Part shown: positions 7,393 to 23,691 of the stretch, one piece after another
Layout: each line of letters starts with the position of its first letter
Position numbering within the stretch: the stretch's first letter is position 1
Origin: Luteibacter sp. OK325
GTDB lineage: Bacteria; Pseudomonadota; Gammaproteobacteria; Xanthomonadales; Rhodanobacteraceae
Length of the DNA stretch: 64,000 bases
Direction of reading: 5' to 3'
Assembly: GCF_003050935.1 (NCBI RefSeq)
Contig: NZ_QAOX01000005.1
Coordinates: forward strand, 62,001-126,000
Notes under the pieces: model-generated
Told to the model about the DNA's origin: nothing
Seen by the model: only the letters and a program-made list of their open reading frames with translations
Databases searched by the model: none
Made by a program: the position numbers and the translations under genes

Positions 7393-8067
7393 TCATTTGA
7401 CGCCAGCCACCACCAGGTACAGCCCGATGATCACCCCCGTCGCCAGCAGATTGGCTACTGACGCTCTGACAGCAGCGCGCCACCATGACATCTTCAGGAT
7501 CCGTGTGTAGATTGCCGTCTGCGCCCACGCATACCAAAGGCAGCTGAGCAGCAGCGGGGCAGCGCCTGCCAGGATCCAGTCTCCGTGGGCGAAGCTCATG
7601 ATGGTCGACGCGAACGCCAGGCCAAGTGCGAATGGCGCCAGCAGATAGCAGTGGATGTAGAAAGGCTTGCGTAGCGAATCGCGGTTTGTCGGCTGACGCT
7701 GATGCCTCAGCATGCTCATCGCACCGAACAGCCCGAAGAGACAGAAAACAACGCTGCGTGTCGCGATTGTCGCCTGCTCGGAGGAGAAGAGTTCCTTACC
7801 GAGGACCGTATCGATCGTCATCGTACGGTGGCGCGTCCCCAGCTCGATGATATGCGCCAGCACGATGGTCAGGATCAGCATCAACGGCGGGCTTACCATC
7901 TCGGTGAACTGCTTGTCGCGCTCCTGTTTCAGCTGTTCGCCTGTGTAGACCGCAACGGCCACGGGATGTCGAAGTGTTCTCCACAGGGCGCGTGGATAGA
8001 AGATCAGCCAACCCATGATCTCGTAGAGAAACTCTTCGAGCGATTGCAGAATGCGCATGAAGTCCAT
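7393..8067 (-). CDS. Multi-pass membrane protein, function unknown
   Basis: A 224-residue protein with about five hydrophobic segments, including LMLILTIVLAHII, VVFCLFGLFGAM, LLAPFALGLAFAS and a C-terminal LLATGVIIGLYLVVAG. The arrangement recalls Yip1-like permeases of unknown role, but I do not recognise the family with certainty. The start at 8067 (MDFMRIL) follows GAAGGTG; an upstream ATG adds a 17-residue arginine-rich leader with no better signal. It ends 114 bp before the start of the DUF1254 gene in the same orientation. Confidence 0.7.
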   Translation of the reverse strand: MDFMRILQSLEEFLYEIMGWLIFYPRALWRTLRHPVAVAVYTGEQLKQERDKQFTEMVSPPLMLILTIVLAHIIELGTRHRTMTIDTVLGKELFSSEQATIATRSVVFCLFGLFGAMSMLRHQRQPTNRDSLRKPFYIHCYLLAPFALGLAFASTIMSFAHGDWILAGAAPLLLSCLWYAWAQTAIYTRILKMSWWRAAVRASVANLLATGVIIGLYLVVAGVK

Positions 8068-8151
8068 CGGACACCTTCGCCTGGCTTGCCGGAGCGCTAG
8101 CGCCCACTCTACCGTCATCCCGGTGTCAGGAGATGAAAGCGGCCGAAGTGG

Positions 8152-8922
8152 TCATGTCGCCTTAACTTCACCGCCATCCATACGGATAGTCGACCCCGTC
8201 ATCCACTTCGCCACGGGTGAGACCAGGAAGGCCATCAGCTCGGCGATCTCTTCCGGCTCGCCATAGCGACCGATCCCGGCTTCGCGCGGAAACTGCTCCG
8301 TCGCCTCTTCCACCGTCATCCCGTGCAGCGGCGCCCAGTGCTCCAGATAGGAGCGACGCCGACCGGTCATCACGGCACCCGGCAACACGCTGTTGACCTG
8401 GACACCGTCAGCAATGCCGCGATCCGAGAATGCCTTGGCGAGGGCGACAATAGCGGCATTTATGGTGGCGACTGCCGCGTACGGGGCCTTCGGCGTTACT
8501 GCCGAGTTGCCGGATATCAGTACGACAGAGCCTCCGCTCTCCTTCAGCGCCGGCCACGCTTCGATCGTGAGGCGACGGGCCCCGTGAAGCTTGAGCGCCA
8601 TACCGGCATCCCATTGCTCATCGGTCATCTCGAACAGATCGATCTGCGGAACAGCGCCGGCGATATTCAGGAGTGCGTCGATGCGGCCAAAGGTTGCCAG
8701 CGTCCGCTCGACGACCGTTCTTGCCGATGCCTTCTCGCCCAGATCGATGTCGACGACGAGGGCCGCTGCGCCCGATTGGCGAATGGTTTCTGCCGTTGCC
8801 TCGAGCTTTTCCCTATTGCGGGCGACGAGCACGACGGCAGAAAAATCTCGCGCGAGACGAAGCGCCGTAGAGCGACCGATACCCTGGCTGGCTCCCGTGA
8901 CGATCGCTACGGACTTTGACAT
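8152..8922 (-). CDS. SDR-like protein lacking catalytic lysine
   Basis: A 256-residue SDR-fold protein. The cofactor motif TGASQGIG, the N-I-A-G motif and the C-terminal GSTIRMDGG are present. The expected Y-x-x-x-K site reads Y-A-A-V-A, so the catalytic Lys is replaced by Ala while the Tyr remains. Loss of this Lys would be expected to impair classical SDR catalysis, so it may be a pseudoenzyme or use another mechanism. It starts at 8922 after GGAGAG and overlaps the upstream alpha/beta-hydrolase gene by 16 bp, which implies co-translation. The pair faces a CGNR regulator. Confidence 0.85.
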   Translation of the reverse strand: MSKSVAIVTGASQGIGRSTALRLARDFSAVVLVARNREKLEATAETIRQSGAAALVVDIDLGEKASARTVVERTLATFGRIDALLNIAGAVPQIDLFEMTDEQWDAGMALKLHGARRLTIEAWPALKESGGSVVLISGNSAVTPKAPYAAVATINAAIVALAKAFSDRGIADGVQVNSVLPGAVMTGRRRSYLEHWAPLHGMTVEEATEQFPREAGIGRYGEPEEIAELMAFLVSPVAKWMTGSTIRMDGGEVKAT

Positions 8923-16221: not shown

Positions 16222-17058
16222 ATGAATACACCGCTCGTGGCTCCCAGGAAAGATACGAACCAAGGCAGCCTTGCCGTCGTCGGCATGGGCATGACCCTGG
16301 GTTCCCACCTCACCCCGCTGGCCCGCAGCCACATAGAACAGGCCGATGTCATCTTTGCCGGCCTCTCGGACAACATCGTCGAGCAGTGGCTGGAACGCAT
16401 GCATCCGGACGTGCGCAGCCTGCAACCGTACTACCAGGAAGGTAAGTCGCGCCGGAAGACCTACGAGGAATGGGTCGACCTGATGATGACCGAGGTCCGG
16501 GCGGGCAAGCGCGTGTGTGGCGTGTTCTACGGTCACCCTGGAATCTTTGCCTGGTCGCCGCACAAGGTCATCGAGGTCGCGCGCGCCGAGGGCTTCCAGG
16601 CACATATGGAACCGGGTGTTTCGGCCGAGGACTGCTTGTATGCCGATCTGGGTATCGACCCGGGAACCGTCGGCTGCCAGCACTACGAAGCCGGTCAGTT
16701 GCTGTTTTACGAACGTCGCGTCGATCCCAGCGCCTATCTGGTGCTGTGGCAGGTCGGCCTCGTCGGCGATCGTTCGCTGGCCCGTTTCACGACTGGCGGC
16801 GCATATCGCCAGGTCCTGGTCGACGTGCTGAGCCAGGACTACCCGCTGGATCACGAGATCATCCTCTACCGCGCGGCCACATTACCCATCCAGCAGCCGC
16901 GCATCCGCCGTATCGCCCTGCGCGACCTGCCCCATGTCGACGTGCCCACCGAAGAGACGGTGGTCTTGCCGCCAGCCGCACCGCTGAAGGCAAACATGGC
17001 GATTCGCGAGCGGCTGGCCGCGCTCGACAAGCTGGAAAAGGAAGCATCGCTGGCGTAA
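16222..17058 (+). CDS. Split-borosin alpha-N-methyltransferase (TP-methylase fold)
   Basis: A 278-residue SAM-dependent tetrapyrrole-methylase-fold enzyme, read as a borosin peptide backbone N-methyltransferase. It shows an N-terminal nucleotide-binding strand and loop (SLAVVGMGMTLGSHLT), then the borosin-type patch Y70-Y71-x-x-G-K-x-R...T-Y81, the FYGHPG loop at 102-107, and PGVSAEDCLYADLGIDPG at 131-148. These match fungal OphMA and bacterial SonM families. Unlike OphMA it is not fused to its substrate; two small precursor-like genes follow. The start is uncertain: the ATG at 16222 lacks a strong ribosome site and a GTG at 16186 is possible. It heads a four-gene operon. Confidence 0.88.
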   Translation: MNTPLVAPRKDTNQGSLAVVGMGMTLGSHLTPLARSHIEQADVIFAGLSDNIVEQWLERMHPDVRSLQPYYQEGKSRRKTYEEWVDLMMTEVRAGKRVCGVFYGHPGIFAWSPHKVIEVARAEGFQAHMEPGVSAEDCLYADLGIDPGTVGCQHYEAGQLLFYERRVDPSAYLVLWQVGLVGDRSLARFTTGGAYRQVLVDVLSQDYPLDHEIILYRAATLPIQQPRIRRIALRDLPHVDVPTEETVVLPPAAPLKANMAIRERLAALDKLEKEASLA

Positions 17059-17106
17059 GCCAGATCATCCCTCTATCGCGCCCACAACCACAGGAAGGGT
17101 AAGCAC

Positions 17107-17328
17107 ATGCTGGATACCATCGATATGCTGGAAGCGATCGGTAGCGACGCCTCGCTGCGCCATGCGACGCCGAACGAACTAAGCGCATTCCTCGAACGAG
17201 AGCACGCTTCGCCGGCACTCACTTCCGCTGCCGCTTCCGGCGACAGCTCAGAGCTCTTTGCAGAGCTGGGGTACACCGTCATGCACGTACCGCAGGTCTC
17301 ACAGTATTTCTTCGGGACCACATCCTGA
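17107..17328 (+). CDS. Borosin precursor peptide A
   Basis: A 73-residue peptide. Residues 1 to about 54 form a helical borosin-binding-type leader (DMLEAIGSDASLRHATP, then ALTSAAASGDSSELFAELG); its A-x-S/T-G-D...L...L-G pattern resembles the Shewanella SonA leader. The C-terminal core candidate (YTVMHVPQVSQYFFGTTS) is hydrophobic and rich in beta-branched residues, suitable for backbone N-methylation. A strong GGAAGGG ribosome site precedes the ATG. It lies 48 bp after the methyltransferase and 46 bp before a paralogous peptide. The modified residues cannot be predicted from sequence alone. Confidence 0.82.
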   Translation: MLDTIDMLEAIGSDASLRHATPNELSAFLEREHASPALTSAAASGDSSELFAELGYTVMHVPQVSQYFFGTTS

Positions 17329-17374
17329 GATCTTCGTAATCGCGTTTTCATAGCCACAACAAACAGGGGACTAC

Positions 17375-17677
17375 ATGTCACACACGATTGAACTACTCGA
17401 GGCCATTGGCCGCGACGCGTCGCTACGCCACGCTTCGTCCGAAGAGCTTGCACGCGTTCTCCAGCAGGCAAAGGCCTCCGAGGCCCTCACGGCGGCGGTA
17501 GCCTCCGGCGACCGTTCGCTGCTTGCCGTGGAGCTGGGCAATAAGATCAATGACGTGCCCCAGGCCACTCAGAGCCCGGGCTATGAGGAAAATGAGCCCA
17601 ATCGCGAGACCGACAAGTCGGACGCGCCTCCGGCGACGGATGACGGGAAGTCGTCCACCGAATCATCGACCAAATAG
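17375..17677 (+). CDS. Borosin precursor-like peptide B, long polar tail
   Basis: A 100-residue paralogue of peptide A. The leader is clearly homologous (LLEAIGRDASLRHAS, ALTAAVASGDRSLLAVELG), but the C-terminus differs: NDVPQATQSPGY is followed by about 30 very polar residues rich in Glu, Asp, Ser, Thr and Lys. Both peptides share V-P-Q-x-x-Q just after the leader. It may be a second substrate with a follower sequence, or a non-substrate regulator. AGGGGAC precedes the ATG. Its TAG stop overlaps the start of the diguanylate cyclase gene. Confidence 0.78.
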   Translation: MSHTIELLEAIGRDASLRHASSEELARVLQQAKASEALTAAVASGDRSLLAVELGNKINDVPQATQSPGYEENEPNRETDKSDAPPATDDGKSSTESSTK

Positions 17678-17679
17678 TG

Positions 17680-19452
17680 ATGGCGGGGCTGCCAAGCCGC
17701 ATCCGGGCCAGGACCGCTATCGCGGTCCTGGCCCTTTGCTGGCTTGTGCAGCCCTCTCTCGCGAACGCAGACATCGACCACACCCGATTCCTGGACGACA
17801 CCGAAAGCCTGCGTACAAAGGACCATCCACAGTTTGTCCAGCGCCTGCATCAGATCCATTCTGAATCGAGCAGCCTGACCACTGCCGATCAATGGCGCCT
17901 GCGTTACCTCGACGCATGGGAAGCGATGTTCGAGGGCGAGTACTCGAAGTCGGAGGTCCAGTTCGACGACATCATCAAGCATTCCGGCGACACCACCCTT
18001 GTTACAAAGGCATCGGCGCTCCTTCTCAGCAACCTGGCGTTCAATCGCCGCTATGAGGAGGCGTTCGCGCTGGCTAATCGCCTGGCGACGACGCTTCCCA
18101 CGGTGACCGATCCGTTAGCGCGAGCCACGCTGCTTACCAATCTGTCCCAGATGATGAATTTTGCGGGCCAACCCGACCTCGCCTTCAAATACGCCGACAT
18201 GGCCGAGAACGCGGTCCCCCCGGGCGAAACCGCATGCCGGGCCGTCTGGTACAAGGCGGCCGCGCTCTTCAGCGGAAAGCGCCTGAAATCGTCGAGCCCT
18301 GAGTTGCGGTTGGCTGTCGATACCTGCGCCGCTGGGCGGGAGAAGGTGACCACCGACAGTGCCCTGCTCCTCATGGGAACCCTCTTACTCGAAGAAGGAC
18401 AACCCCAGAAGGCCATGGCTCTGCTGGATCGCATCGAGCCGAGCATTCGCATCAACCACTATTTTCCCAACGAGTTGTCCGCGCAGCTACAGCGTGCCCA
18501 GGCCTATGAAAAGCTGGGAAATGACAGCGAGGCGAAGAAGGCGGCCCTGGCTCTTGTGGCCATGAACGGTCCCAACGACATCAGCGATTGGCTCAGGGAG
18601 GCCTATGAAATTCTCTACCGGGTAGAGAAGCGCAAGGGAAATGCCGTCACCGCTCTGTCGTACTACGAACACTTTGTGGCTCAGGACAAGGGCTATCTCA
18701 ATGATGTCGGCGTCAGAAGCCTGGCCTATCAGGTAAGTCAGCAACATCAGATGGTGCAGACTCTCGCAACGGAGGGCCTGAGCAGACAGAACCGCATCCT
18801 CCGTTTGCAACAGGCGCTCGACGCGAACACGGTGGCTACGGGCCGGCTCTACATCGCACTGCTCCTGGTGGTCCTGGCATCCATCGGACTGCTGTTGTTC
18901 CGGGTGAAGCGTTCGCAACTTCGCTTCAAGAGGATGTCCTCGCTGGACGGCCTGACCGGCATCCTGAATCACCAGCATTTCATGAGCGGGGCCGAGCGGA
19001 TGCTGCGTGTTCAGGAGAAGAAGGTTGGCAGCGCCTGCCTCATCTCCATCGACCTCGACCACTTCAAGCAGGTCAACGACACGCATGGCCATGCCATGGG
19101 TGACATCGTGCTCCAGTACACCGTGGCCGTTCTCCAGGAGCACCTGCGCCCGAGCGACCTGTTCGGCCGCCTGGGCGGCGAAGAGTTCGGCATCCTCCTC
19201 GCCGGTTGCTCGAGCAGCCAGGCGGTAGCGACAGCCCAACGCCTGCGCGTCGCGATCGAAGCGAGTCCGGTCACGGACGACGGCCGTATCGTCCCGCTCT
19301 CGGTCAGCGTCGGCGTCGCCTCCACCGACAGGTGCGGATACGTTCTGGCGCGTCTGTGCCGCGAGGCAGACACGGCGCTGTACCGGGCCAAGCGCGCCGG
19401 CCGCAATCGTGTTGTCACCGATGCCGAGAACGACACGCTCACCGCGGCTTGA
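17680..19452 (+). CDS. TPR-TM-GGDEF diguanylate cyclase
   Basis: A 590-residue membrane protein. It has an N-terminal signal peptide (ending SLANA), a long periplasmic helical TPR-like region (about residues 35-385), a coiled stretch, one membrane helix (LYIALLLVVLASIGLLLF, about 389-406), and a C-terminal GGDEF domain. The active-site signature is GGEEF, and an R-x-x-D inhibitory site (RPSD) lies five residues before it, so it should make c-di-GMP with product inhibition. A GTG at 17677 or ATG at 17680 overlaps the TAG stop of peptide B (TAGTGATG), so it is translationally coupled to the borosin operon. It converges on the SLOG gene. Confidence 0.9.
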   Translation: MAGLPSRIRARTAIAVLALCWLVQPSLANADIDHTRFLDDTESLRTKDHPQFVQRLHQIHSESSSLTTADQWRLRYLDAWEAMFEGEYSKSEVQFDDIIKHSGDTTLVTKASALLLSNLAFNRRYEEAFALANRLATTLPTVTDPLARATLLTNLSQMMNFAGQPDLAFKYADMAENAVPPGETACRAVWYKAAALFSGKRLKSSSPELRLAVDTCAAGREKVTTDSALLLMGTLLLEEGQPQKAMALLDRIEPSIRINHYFPNELSAQLQRAQAYEKLGNDSEAKKAALALVAMNGPNDISDWLREAYEILYRVEKRKGNAVTALSYYEHFVAQDKGYLNDVGVRSLAYQVSQQHQMVQTLATEGLSRQNRILRLQQALDANTVATGRLYIALLLVVLASIGLLLFRVKRSQLRFKRMSSLDGLTGILNHQHFMSGAERMLRVQEKKVGSACLISIDLDHFKQVNDTHGHAMGDIVLQYTVAVLQEHLRPSDLFGRLGGEEFGILLAGCSSSQAVATAQRLRVAIEASPVTDDGRIVPLSVSVGVASTDRCGYVLARLCREADTALYRAKRAGRNRVVTDAENDTLTAA

Positions 19453-19458
19453 GTCGTG

Positions 19459-21162
19459 CTAGAGCTTGCTGTGCTCCACCTGCCGCTCGCGTTGCATCAA
19501 TGTCCATTCCGCGTGCTCCGTCAGGGCGGCATCGCCCAGTGACAGAAGAATGGCCCGCTGTTGGGCGGGATCCTGCGTGCCATCCAGGGCCGTTCGCGCG
19601 CTGGCGAAGATGCGTTGCATGAAGCGGTACTGCCGGATCAATTCCCGGTCCGCCTTGCGGTAGGAGTACGCCTCGCGCACCGCCGCGATGATCGATAGCA
19701 CGGCCATGAGGGTGACCAGGGTCACCTTGGCTTCCTCATCGAGCTTCAGGGCGAAGGCGGCCAGGAAGACGCTGATGGTGACGCCACCCCACAGGCTCAC
19801 ACGCCCGATGGTTTCGGTGATGTGGTGCACGCCGCTACGTTCGGCGCTCTTGCGCTCGTAGTAATTGAGCTGGCCCGACTTGCCCGATTCACCCACCCAC
19901 TCGGCGATGACCTCCGCGAGCGCGGCCGTGGTCGGCGCTTCGGGATGCGTCGACGGATAGAGGCTGGCCGCGCGCATGACGTTGCGTATCCAGCCCAGTT
20001 CGATGTTCTGCTTCTGCAGGAAGTTATCGTGTGCGAACTCGTGGTCCGCGCTGGCGACGATACCGGCACGGCGCCAGCAGGACTGGATACGCAAGCCTTC
20101 GGCGAGGGCGCGGTAATCGAGGTATTTGCGATGCCAGCCACGACGATGCGCGAGTGTGGCGACGATTCCGCCCGTGGCGAACATCACCAGGAACAGGTAG
20201 ATCAGGAAGTTGCTGCCCGGCAGATGCGCATAGAAGGTGAACGCGATACCCATCAGGCCGGCCAGCGTGTACGTCAGGCGCATCGCCATGATCACGCGGC
20301 GGCGGAAATGCACGGCCAGCCAGTCGGCGGCATGAAACAGCCGGTCGATCTCCGCGGTTGCACCCGACGGTGGCCCGGCCATCTCGCGCGGAGCTTCATC
20401 GATGGCTTCCGCGTGACGCGCGCATTCGTTGTTGAACTCGGCCATGCGCGAGAACATCAGGCGGAAGTCGTCTGGCAACGTCGCGTGGAACGCCATGTCT
20501 TCTGCGCTTCGCCAGCCTGATTGCATCGCCTGGAGGCCCGGTGCCGGGCCGTCGCCCTCGCGCGAACAGACGATGTGATACAGCAGGCTCTCATCGCTGC
20601 CGGTGAGTATGTGTCGCGAATGAGGGTGTCGCAGGACCAGGCCCGGTGGCGCGCCGGTGAGATGGTAGTGCACGATCTGTGCTGTTCCGCCGAGTCCGGC
20701 CGCTCCATTGCCGTCCCATATGCTCAGCAACACGTGGCAATGACTGGCGATGTAGACGCCAGCCTTCGCGTACTGGCGGTCGCGCGCCGCACCATGCGCA
20801 CCGATCACATGGTGGGGCTGTTCCATCAGCCGCGGAAGCAGAACCACTTCGGCACGACTGCATAATGCTTCGAAGTTCGCGCGCACGGCAGGTGTCGCGA
20901 AGTCGTCGACGTACAGCGCTCGCGGCAACGGCAGGGGCGCTATCAGGCGTGCGCCGGCGGCCAGTGCTTCTTCCGCGATCAACTGGTCGCCGCCTTCGGC
21001 GAGGGCCGAAAGCACCACCAGCGGCAGCTCGGGAAATGCCTCGCGAAGCTGGGCAAAGAATGCGCGCACGCTCTCGCGGAGGGGCTCTACTTCGTCAACG
21101 GGAATATCCCGATGGCTGGTAACGCCGACGACCAGTGGGGTCATGGCAGCTTGCCCGGCCAT
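19459..21162 (-). CDS. SLOG-SLATT-like membrane protein
   Basis: About 567 residues. The N-terminal Rossmann-like domain fits the SLOG nucleotide-binding family: VVGVTSHRDIP near residue 11, then LSALAEGGDQLIAEEAL and APLPLPRALYVDDF. The C-terminal half has two pairs of membrane helices with the SLATT-type connector HRKYLDYRALAEGLRIQSCW, followed by a cytoplasmic tail. SLOG/SLATT pairs are linked to nucleotide-dependent conflict systems and membrane effectors; that is family knowledge, not shown here. The start is uncertain: ATGs exist at 21246, 21162 and 21144, and the Rossmann fold begins at the last. Downstream of the TIR gene in a probable operon. Confidence 0.72.
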   Translation of the reverse strand: MAGQAAMTPLVVGVTSHRDIPVDEVEPLRESVRAFFAQLREAFPELPLVVLSALAEGGDQLIAEEALAAGARLIAPLPLPRALYVDDFATPAVRANFEALCSRAEVVLLPRLMEQPHHVIGAHGAARDRQYAKAGVYIASHCHVLLSIWDGNGAAGLGGTAQIVHYHLTGAPPGLVLRHPHSRHILTGSDESLLYHIVCSREGDGPAPGLQAMQSGWRSAEDMAFHATLPDDFRLMFSRMAEFNNECARHAEAIDEAPREMAGPPSGATAEIDRLFHAADWLAVHFRRRVIMAMRLTYTLAGLMGIAFTFYAHLPGSNFLIYLFLVMFATGGIVATLAHRRGWHRKYLDYRALAEGLRIQSCWRRAGIVASADHEFAHDNFLQKQNIELGWIRNVMRAASLYPSTHPEAPTTAALAEVIAEWVGESGKSGQLNYYERKSAERSGVHHITETIGRVSLWGGVTISVFLAAFALKLDEEAKVTLVTLMAVLSIIAAVREAYSYRKADRELIRQYRFMQRIFASARTALDGTQDPAQQRAILLSLGDAALTEHAEWTLMQRERQVEHSKL

Positions 21163-21250
21163 GGGAATCCCAGGCAGCGGCCGTTGCCGGCCACCACCGA
21201 TGGAACCGATCGGGTCCCTGCCGCCTGGATCGGTGCGCTGCCTCATAGGC

Positions 21251-21442: not shown

Positions 21443-23629
21443 TTACTCCCGCTCTTGCGGTGGCCCGCCGCCCGTGGCCACGAGCAGTTCATGCTGGAAT
21501 GCCTGGTTTACCGGGTAGTCGATATGCTCCCTCCGCAACACGCGCAACAACCCCGGGTCGCGATAGCCGCTTGCCCAGAGGCGCTGGATGACCGCCGTCG
21601 CATCCGGCTTGCGTTGCAATGCCAGCAGCGCCTCGACACGCAGCGCCTGCAGGCGGGGATCGCCCTGCCCGCTCCTGGCCGTCTGCACGCTGTCCAGCGC
21701 TTCGCTGCGGAGTTGTCGGGCTGCCTGCTCGTCGGTCGTGACGGTGGCCAGTGACAGTCGTGCCGCCGTGCCCGCGAGCAGGGTGGAGCGATCGTCAGGT
21801 AGCTGGACCATCAGCGGCGCGAGCGCGTGCAGCGCAGCCGTGACGCGCTCACGCGCTTCGTCCTGCCGTCCGGCTTCGCGTAGCTGCGCCGCCTGCTCCA
21901 CCAGGGCTTCGGCGTACTCACGCTGCCAGGCCGCGTTGTCGGGATCGTGCCGCGCCAGTCCGGTGAAGATCGAGAGCGCTTTGTCCGTAAGCGCCGTGGC
22001 GGACGGGAGGTCGCCACTCAGGCGACGCAAGCGGCTCAGCTGTGTCGCATACAGGGCCGCGTGTTCCTGGAAATCGGTGTTGCTCGGATCCAGCACGCCG
22101 AGTTGCGTCGCCATGTCGACGGCACGCTGGAGTCGATCCATGCCGGCCGTCGTGTCACCTGTGAGCGCCTGCGTCCGTCCAAGGATGGCGTGTACGGTGA
22201 GCAGGTTGTCGCGCCGGCTCATGTTCTTCGGCTCGGCCGCCGACAGGCCGGACTGGATCCGCTCATCCGCACCGTACCGGGCAACGGCCTCCGCGAGGTC
22301 GCCGCGCATCAAGGCCAGCTTGCCGAGGTTGTTGTATGCCGAACCGAGGTACTCGACCCAGTCCGCGTTGTGCGGTTGGCCGATGACCAGGTCCTGCATC
22401 TGGGCGAGCATGTGCCGGTACTGCGCAGCCGCCTGATCCAGCTCGCCGCGGGCCTCCATGACATGGCCGATGTTGTTGTCCAGCGTGGCACGCTGGAAGG
22501 CAAGCTGCGTGTTGCCCGGCGCAAGCACGGCGGCCCGTTGCAGCGTGGTCTGTGCGCCGGCGAAGCTCCGCTGCGCGTCGTCGAGTTTGCCCTGTCGCCA
22601 CTGGGTCATGCCGATGAAGGCACCGACTTCCGCGAACGCCAGTTGCCGCTCGATATTGGCCGGTGCCGCGTCGGCCAGCCGTTTTGCCACGGCATTGGCC
22701 GCTTGATACGAGGTCATGGCGGCGGCTAGCTGACCCTGGTCCAGGCGCACGCTGCCGATCTTCTCCAGCGCCGAGGCACGCTGCGCCAGCGCCCGGTCGG
22801 TGACTTCGTCCATCGGCTGGGCCTGGAAGTACTTCATGGCCTGGTCGTCCACCGCTTCCATGATGTCCAGCCGCGACACCTGGGCCAGCTTGTCGTTGAG
22901 GTCGCCGAGCATGAAGCTGACCAGGTCCTCGGCCTCCTTCTGCCGCCGCTCGGCGGCGTGGCGAGAGATGAAAGCGCTGATCGCCAGGCCGGTCGTCACC
23001 GTCATGATGCACAGGGCGACGACGGCGAGCGCCATCGCGCGCCGCATGCGCCGGTGCAGATCGCGTTGCTTCAGGTCATCGAATGCGACGTCGAGAATAC
23101 CGGCGAGCAGTTTGATCTTCGCAATGAGCTTGCCGTCACTGCCGAGCCTCACGTCGGCGGCGATGGGCTCGATGGCCTCGCCGCCCAGGCGATAGCGCAG
23201 TGCCGGAACGAAACACTCCTCCGCTTCGCGCCCATCGACCCGACTGACGTTCGGCTCGCCGGCGACGATAAGACAGAAGATCCGTTCATCCCGACCGAGC
23301 CGCTTGAACGAGAGCACTTCCTCATTGACCCACCGCGACACCGCAGCTTGCGGCGAACAGATCACCAGCAGGCATTCGGATTGCGCAAGGGCCGCGTTGA
23401 CGGTGCGACCGAGGTCGTCGGCGCTGGCAAGTTCGTCGCGATCACGAAAGACCGGCGCCAGCCTGGCGGGAATGACGCCCATGGCTGTGGACTTGCCCAC
23501 GAGGCGCTTCGGGATGACGTAGGTTTCCAGGGCGCGATGCAACCACGCCGCCCAGGCTTTGTCCTGGTGGCTGTAGCTGATGAAGGCGCGGTACCGATAA
23601 CCCGGCCCGATGGAACCTTCGCTCGACAC
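21443..23629 (-). CDS. TIR-TM-TPR protein
   Basis: About 728 residues. An N-terminal TIR domain (residues about 10-140: RAFISYSHQDKAWAAWL, FRDRDELASADDL) is followed by a membrane helix (about 199-221), a coiled region, and at least five TPR-like repeats to the C-terminus. The putative NADase glutamate is present in S-R-W-V-N-E-E (Glu104). The GTG start at 23629 follows GGGGTG; a longer GTG start at 23689 would place a CRP-like palindrome only 3 bp upstream, which makes it less likely. It is the first gene of an operon with the small charged protein and the SLOG/SLATT-like gene. Role in defence or signalling is inferred. Confidence 0.85.
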   Translation of the reverse strand: MSSEGSIGPGYRYRAFISYSHQDKAWAAWLHRALETYVIPKRLVGKSTAMGVIPARLAPVFRDRDELASADDLGRTVNAALAQSECLLVICSPQAAVSRWVNEEVLSFKRLGRDERIFCLIVAGEPNVSRVDGREAEECFVPALRYRLGGEAIEPIAADVRLGSDGKLIAKIKLLAGILDVAFDDLKQRDLHRRMRRAMALAVVALCIMTVTTGLAISAFISRHAAERRQKEAEDLVSFMLGDLNDKLAQVSRLDIMEAVDDQAMKYFQAQPMDEVTDRALAQRASALEKIGSVRLDQGQLAAAMTSYQAANAVAKRLADAAPANIERQLAFAEVGAFIGMTQWRQGKLDDAQRSFAGAQTTLQRAAVLAPGNTQLAFQRATLDNNIGHVMEARGELDQAAAQYRHMLAQMQDLVIGQPHNADWVEYLGSAYNNLGKLALMRGDLAEAVARYGADERIQSGLSAAEPKNMSRRDNLLTVHAILGRTQALTGDTTAGMDRLQRAVDMATQLGVLDPSNTDFQEHAALYATQLSRLRRLSGDLPSATALTDKALSIFTGLARHDPDNAAWQREYAEALVEQAAQLREAGRQDEARERVTAALHALAPLMVQLPDDRSTLLAGTAARLSLATVTTDEQAARQLRSEALDSVQTARSGQGDPRLQALRVEALLALQRKPDATAVIQRLWASGYRDPGLLRVLRREHIDYPVNQAFQHELLVATGGGPPQERE

Positions 23630-23691
23630 GCGTGCACCCCGCAGGTCGTGGGTAGCCTCCCCGGGCGGCCCGAAGCGACACGCTAGCACCG

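Follow-up and report, generated by a model that had tools for sequence, protein, structure and literature searches.

A predicted split-borosin operon of four consecutive genes on the plus strand (16222-19452) is encoded in a 64,000-nucleotide stretch of contig NZ_QAOX01000005.1, here called the window, from the soil bacterium Luteibacter sp. OK325. It combines a SonM-like α-N-methyltransferase and two small precursor peptides, the components of a backbone-N-methylated ribosomally synthesized and post-translationally modified peptide (RiPP) system, with a tetratricopeptide repeat (TPR) protein that carries a diguanylate cyclase (GGDEF) output domain. On balance, we favor the view that this operon is a peptide-signalling unit in which a methylated peptide is read by the adjacent TPR sensor; the biosynthetic part of this proposal is based on homology and the sensing part is what we infer. 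Gene order, output domain and presence of the enzyme vary across related loci while the TPR protein stays, which argues that the TPR part is the partner. A split-borosin operon with an attached diguanylate cyclase had been proposed in an initial annotation of this DNA, and all four genes were confirmed at the following positions:

16222..17058, plus strand: predicted split-borosin α-N-methyltransferase, a SonM relative without fused substrate (278 amino acids)
17107..17328, plus strand: precursor peptide 1 (73 amino acids), leader at about residues 1-54, short core ending in FFGTTS, without a tail
17375..17677, plus strand: precursor peptide 2 (100 amino acids), same leader, core approximately VPQATQSPG, acidic and proline-rich C-terminal tail
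17680..19452, plus strand: TPR-GGDEF diguanylate cyclase (590 amino acids from the ATG) with a signal-peptide-like N-terminus, predicted periplasmic TPRs, one transmembrane helix and a cytoplasmic GGDEF domain (Pfam: GGDEF, 2.1e-39; TPR_14, 2.4e-09)
18940..19410, plus strand: GGDEF domain of this cyclase (Pfam match, residues 422-578 of the open reading frame (ORF) from 17677), with an intact GGEEF motif (codons 19174-19188, read from the sequence) and RPSD upstream

The ATG of the cyclase lies 2 bases 3' of the peptide 2 stop codon, and an alternative GTG start at 17677 overlaps this stop.

The assignment of the first gene product as a split (type IV-like) borosin enzyme, and not a cobalamin or siroheme enzyme, is well supported by sequence and structural comparison. 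SonM ranked first in a PDB search (1.4e-75, 257 bits), followed by fungal borosin enzymes (170-179 bits), and the sole precorrin enzyme in the list scored 23 bits, far below the borosin enzymes. Pfam returned the broad TP_methylase fold, and no NCBIfam model came near its cut-off (YabN was best with 41 vs 525 bits, siroheme synthase CysG reached 24 vs 400 and precorrin enzymes at most 22). The profile search named in the initial annotation as a way to overturn its assignment thus favored SonM instead, and a cobalamin or siroheme identity was rejected on these rankings together with the structural comparison. In structural alignments, the enzyme is 45-47% identical to SonM. The Tyr/Arg and FYGHPG features described earlier could be located as Y71, R77, Y81 and Y103 (in FYGHPG), which align to the catalytic and lock residues Y58, R67, Y71 and Y93 of SonM and are invariant across the 15 rows of alignment A1 as well as across a 30-row alignment. 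The enzyme was also correctly described as not fused to a substrate, the precursors being encoded as separate genes. In comparisons with two close relatives, the ratios of non-synonymous to synonymous substitution rates (dN/dS) are 0.08-0.10 for the enzyme and 0.11 for the cyclase. A borosin-enzyme match inside a 1174-amino-acid open frame in genome G736 (L295:4451-7975, minus strand; G and L numbers denote genomes and loci) is possibly a fused borosin.

Both precursor peptides were assigned by a family hidden Markov model (HMM). Their leaders are 51% identical (alignment A4), while the cores differ and the acidic tail is found in peptide 2 only, so that the earlier description of two dissimilar substrates holds for cores and tail and not for the leaders, which are paralogous. 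The family pattern is MSDTIDLLEAIGRDASLRHAS..., followed by a core of variable sequence that often comes close to PQxxQxPG, with an acidic, proline-rich tail in the cyclase-adjacent peptide. SonA was not among the PDB matches when each window peptide was used directly as a phmmer query. Profile-profile comparison of A4 (17 rows, the window and other Xanthomonadales peptides) with A5 (18 SonA-like peptides) aligned 69 gapless columns with a probability of 96.2 and an E-value of 2.3e-9, and one A5 member, in L342, is near-identical to SonA (2.4e-38). In a model in which it continues the enzyme chain, peptide 1 is predicted to form five short helices (chain residues 299-348); the SonA leader, according to the available text of PMC8429565, is a five-helix bundle. 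Profile match and predicted bundle bear out the SonA-like leader noted in the initial annotation. Within this fused-chain model the bundle of the leader is predicted with fair confidence, the core end stays below a predicted local distance difference test (pLDDT) score of 50, and whole-chain superposition on OphMA gave a root-mean-square deviation of ~14 Å. A phmmer search with the SonA-like leader at L342:7832-8044 lists TALE repeat proteins (repeat matches, residues 14-48), probably a summing artefact.

The small ORFs represent real genes, since they recur beside the enzyme in related loci (family HMM) and peptide 2 shows a dN/dS of 0.24-0.28 when compared with the final peptide of each of the two closest relatives of the window, L034 and L033; several peptide 1 comparisons were saturated. 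With the profile match to the SonA-like family added, chance ORFs were rejected. Precursors with varied cores form arrays before one sensor, namely 7 peptides in L033 (7525-10144), 11 in L034 (3356-6946) and 2 in the window. The likely counterpart of peptide 2 is the last peptide of the array in both relatives (64-65% identity), and peptide 1 corresponds best to the first L034 peptide (74%) and, in L033, to the sixth (64%). That the cores are backbone-N-methylated by the SonM-like enzyme is probable and well supported by homology.

The transmembrane helix of the fourth protein is followed by positive charges, and we take the RPSD upstream of GGEEF to be I-site-like. Since the hydrophobicity threshold missed the N-terminal stretch of the window sensor and detected none in many other cyclases, the predicted periplasmic location of the TPR domain rests also on a Cys pair kept in 154 of 155 sensors. 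The predicted model of a homologous sensor from the second cassette of the same genome consists of a high-confidence TPR superhelix (126-436) and a long helix (440-535). Structure searches do not amount to proof of peptide binding, because TPR folds are generic. The fold similarity of the sensor to the RRNPP receptors (Rap, NprR, AimR) is one that many other TPR proteins share. These receptors are cytoplasmic and have DNA-binding or phosphatase activity. The window sensor, in contrast, has a predicted periplasmic TPR domain, no helix-turn-helix (HTH) match in Pfam and a GGDEF output, replaced by a kinase in some relatives, and backbone methylation is predicted for its peptide. A TPR domain controlling a diguanylate cyclase, encoded in an operon with its partner, is found in RcbB of Vibrio vulnificus, which differs in being controlled by another TPR protein; the available text mentions no methyltransferase or methylase and refers to two Vibrio cyclases whose TPR domains are predicted to be periplasmic (PMC12282931).

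To describe the association across genomes, neighbourhoods were read for the window, 61 loci of its own and related genomes, the best 80 of 552 confirmed named loci and 74 others, the last being part of the ~105 enzyme places listed for the order around G405. After identical copies had been dropped, 212 enzymes remained, 206 of them with enough sequence for a full neighbourhood. A same-strand TPR sensor of this kind was found in 186 of these 206 loci (about nine in ten), which were chosen by similarity and are related by descent, so that all counts are non-independent and fractions describe the sample only. By composition, 161 loci have peptide and cyclase, 14 peptide and kinase, 12 a cyclase without detected peptide, 12 a peptide only and 7 neither. 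When the sensor part was searched for on its own, 183 of 187 cyclase or kinase partners proved to contain it; Pfam detects TPRs in L263 and L267, L192 and L268 were removed because their same-strand cyclase is of another kind, and L034, whose cyclase lies after the 11 peptides, was added. Of 61 genomes, comprising that of the window and its relatives, 49 gave enzyme matches at E<=1e-3 (42 below 1e-50, 7 weak). At E<=1e-20, the enzyme was detected in 10 of 369 genomes sampled from the class, in 70 of 295 from the order around G405 and in 15 of 398 from the phylum, with overlap between the samples.

Output domains vary between GGDEF, histidine kinase (TPRs in Pfam for 10 of 11 examined, L278 being the one without) and none, as in L257 and L261, where a stand-alone TPR protein with a signal peptide is encoded. 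Two orders of enzyme, peptide and sensor genes occur, 18 family-level groups are covered, and among 36 chosen divergent loci no gene family besides enzyme and sensor recurs in more than four. In several loci, a single enzyme is surrounded by two or three peptide-sensor pairs; one enzyme could serve several pairs, and peptide and receptor variants could therefore evolve side by side. Leader-type peptides also lie upstream of 9 of 16 enzyme-less sensors in Luteibacter (a seventeenth place, L321, was excluded because its sequence is cut off).

SonM-SonA of Shewanella oneidensis, a type IV split borosin, resembles the window operon in its separate α-N-methyltransferase with the same catalytic residues and in a precursor of ~70 amino acids with an N-terminal helical borosin-binding leader and a C-terminal core, according to the available text of PMC8429565, in which no mention of GGDEF, diguanylate, operon or signal was found. 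The window operon differs in encoding two precursors, of which one carries a long acidic tail. A near-identical pair is found in G665 (L342), almost certainly a Shewanella judging by its matches to SonM (1.5e-167) and SonA, and lies directly 5' of a TPR-GGDEF protein. The GGDEF coupling, part of a cluster that looked undescribed in the initial annotation, is not peculiar to this Xanthomonadales cluster; it is the rule in the sampled gammaproteobacterial loci, this close SonM-SonA relative included.

The genome of Luteibacter sp. OK325 contains 25 GGDEF genes, three of which encode this sensor. A second enzyme (66% identity) belongs to a cassette with the gene order peptide, TPR-GGDEF, enzyme. 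The third TPR-GGDEF protein (L196:5944-7809, minus strand, contig C6 of G000) has a leader-type peptide upstream (7772-8212, minus strand) and no enzyme nearby; a methyltransferase may have been lost here, since one is present in comparable cassettes of other Luteibacter (e.g. L069, L073). By our own estimate, such a sensor would neighbour ~0.5% of places within 4 kb by chance. The second-cassette precursor at L003:12096-12425 (minus strand) has an Asp/His-rich, possibly metal-binding tail with a His6 run, and similar tails occur in L052, L053 and L056. A gene presumably encoding a TonB-dependent receptor lies near three related cassettes (L003:5426-8617, L057:9205-12396, L064:9168-12359), of which L057 and L064 have peptides without a sensor; being full-length and near the enzyme only in these three, it was rejected as a general fourth gene.

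We propose the following sequence of events. The SonM-like enzyme would, by homology, bind the precursor leader and methylate backbone nitrogens of the short core. The core would then be released and leave the cytoplasm via machinery encoded outside the cassette, and could bind the TPR superhelix of the membrane sensor in the periplasm. Binding would be relayed via the coiled coil and the membrane helix to the GGDEF domain and alter the level of cyclic dimeric guanosine monophosphate (c-di-GMP). In other lineages, where the corresponding architectures are found, the same sensor type may drive a histidine kinase or act as a free TPR protein. With more reserve, we also entertain a wider proposal: gammaproteobacterial split borosins, SonM-SonA included, may be signals rather than cryptic natural products, either backbone-N-methylated pheromones or self-made envelope signals, with their own periplasmic TPR receptors, an interchangeable c-di-GMP or phosphorelay output, receptors and peptides multiplying around one enzyme and, in some lineages, trimming by a pepsin-like protease.

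Besides the non-independence of the counts, several observations weigh against a peptide-signalling unit. After removal of enzyme and GGDEF distances, the partial rank correlation between core and sensor is 0.01, compared with 0.17 for core and GGDEF and 0.40 for leader and sensor; core-sensor co-evolution is therefore not supported, with the caveat that cores are short and noisy, and the leader-sensor value is explained more readily by a pair that moves together, or by contact between leader and sensor, than by recognition of the core. AlphaFold with an unmethylated core gave no confident docking in the TPR groove (pLDDT ~40-55), and 97 of 246 cyclases have no hydrophobic N-terminal stretch in their first 130 residues at the threshold used. 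Seven of the 16 enzyme-less sensors have no detectable peptide among upstream ORFs (only 1.3 kb could be inspected in L302), and nine loci have peptides and no sensor nearby (L057, L064, L078, L139, L150, L152, L159, L191, L250). Methylation may not always be needed, given the enzyme-less peptide-sensor pairs, and no exporter or protease recurs in Xanthomonadales cassettes.

Three other explanations were considered. The TPR sensor could be a cluster regulator that senses something else, the peptide being the product (an antibiotic, metallophore or other) whose production is timed by c-di-GMP or phosphorelay. Such regulators are common in RiPP clusters, and metal-binding-looking tails such as that of L003 and the lack of specific core-sensor co-variation fit this idea; we nevertheless regard it as unlikely, as peptide-sensor pairs persist without the enzyme and are duplicated jointly around a single enzyme, a TPR protein lacking an output domain can serve as the partner, and a diguanylate cyclase would be an indirect cluster regulator. 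Less probable still is a handling partner that holds either the leader or the freed peptide while export or trimming takes place, with cyclase or kinase reporting on the process. The leader-sensor correlation and the stand-alone, secreted-looking TPR proteins of L257 and L261 speak for this role, against which stand the expected location of the leader in the cytoplasm with the enzyme, away from a sensor domain predicted to be periplasmic, and the absence of a transporter recurring beside the sensor. That an ancient operon was simply carried along by inheritance, with no functional meaning, is consistent with loci related by descent, yet appears very improbable in view of the two gene orders, the change of output domain, the 18 family-level groups and the lack of any other widely recurring neighbour.

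A gene for a pepsin-like (A1-type) aspartic protease lies upstream of the enzyme gene, in the same orientation, at 14 of 201 loci (L082, L239, L241, L244, L247, L253, L256, L262, L265, L272, L274, L291, L292 and, as a fragment, L250); the two proteases tested by Pfam matched PF00026. Within the order around G405 the protease is present in 28 of 295 genomes, each of them one of the 70 that encode a borosin enzyme, and lies next to the enzyme in 14; the chance of this overlap is 2e-20 when kinship, which inflates the figure, is ignored. The protease is a candidate for maturation of the borosin precursor in some lineages. No pepsin-like protease was found in the genome of the window at E<=1e-5 with PF00026, a difference from the protease-bearing loci; the same search matched 3 of 61 relatives and misses some, since none was reported in G060, where a protease is present by protein similarity (L082). 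Among bacterial homologues of pepsin, for which a role in stress tolerance has been suggested, shewasin D resides mainly in the cytoplasm and works at acid pH, and the available text names no peptide maturation role for shewasins (PMC4814920).

The borosin operon stands alone in the window, because both flanking genes, for a LysR regulator upstream and a DUF4231 protein downstream, lie on the opposite strand. No Rfam family reached its gathering score across the whole window, and riboswitch feedback was rejected; a promoter and terminator scan gave no signal exceeding shuffled sequences. The DUF4231/SLATT-like protein (19459-21246) and a large, presumably TIR-like protein (21443-23689), both on the minus strand 3' of the operon, are possibly a defence pair; the latter matched the SAVED-TIR model of PADLOC (3.2e-09, 34 bits). 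The cyclase had no PADLOC match and was rejected as a defence-system component.

Split borosins as such are already known, with types IV-X described (PMC11395268, PMC11285071, available text). The literature searched, with partial coverage and an earlier printed report being possible, contained no link between borosins and diguanylate cyclases, none between borosins and quorum sensing in Shewanella or between backbone-N-methylated ribosomal peptides and c-di-GMP, and no α-N-methyltransferase from a Xanthomonad; no role was stated for bacterial split borosins in the literature consulted. RiPP precursor peptides and diguanylate cyclases are mentioned together in two actinomycete reviews, both of wide scope to judge by their titles. 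The sensor kept beside enzyme and peptide suggests a specific, testable role for these little-understood systems, whose ligand and receptor could be assayed together. A possible job is also offered for bacterial pepsins, all 28 of the protease-bearing genomes having a borosin enzyme. If true, our proposal would join RiPP chemistry with c-di-GMP signalling.

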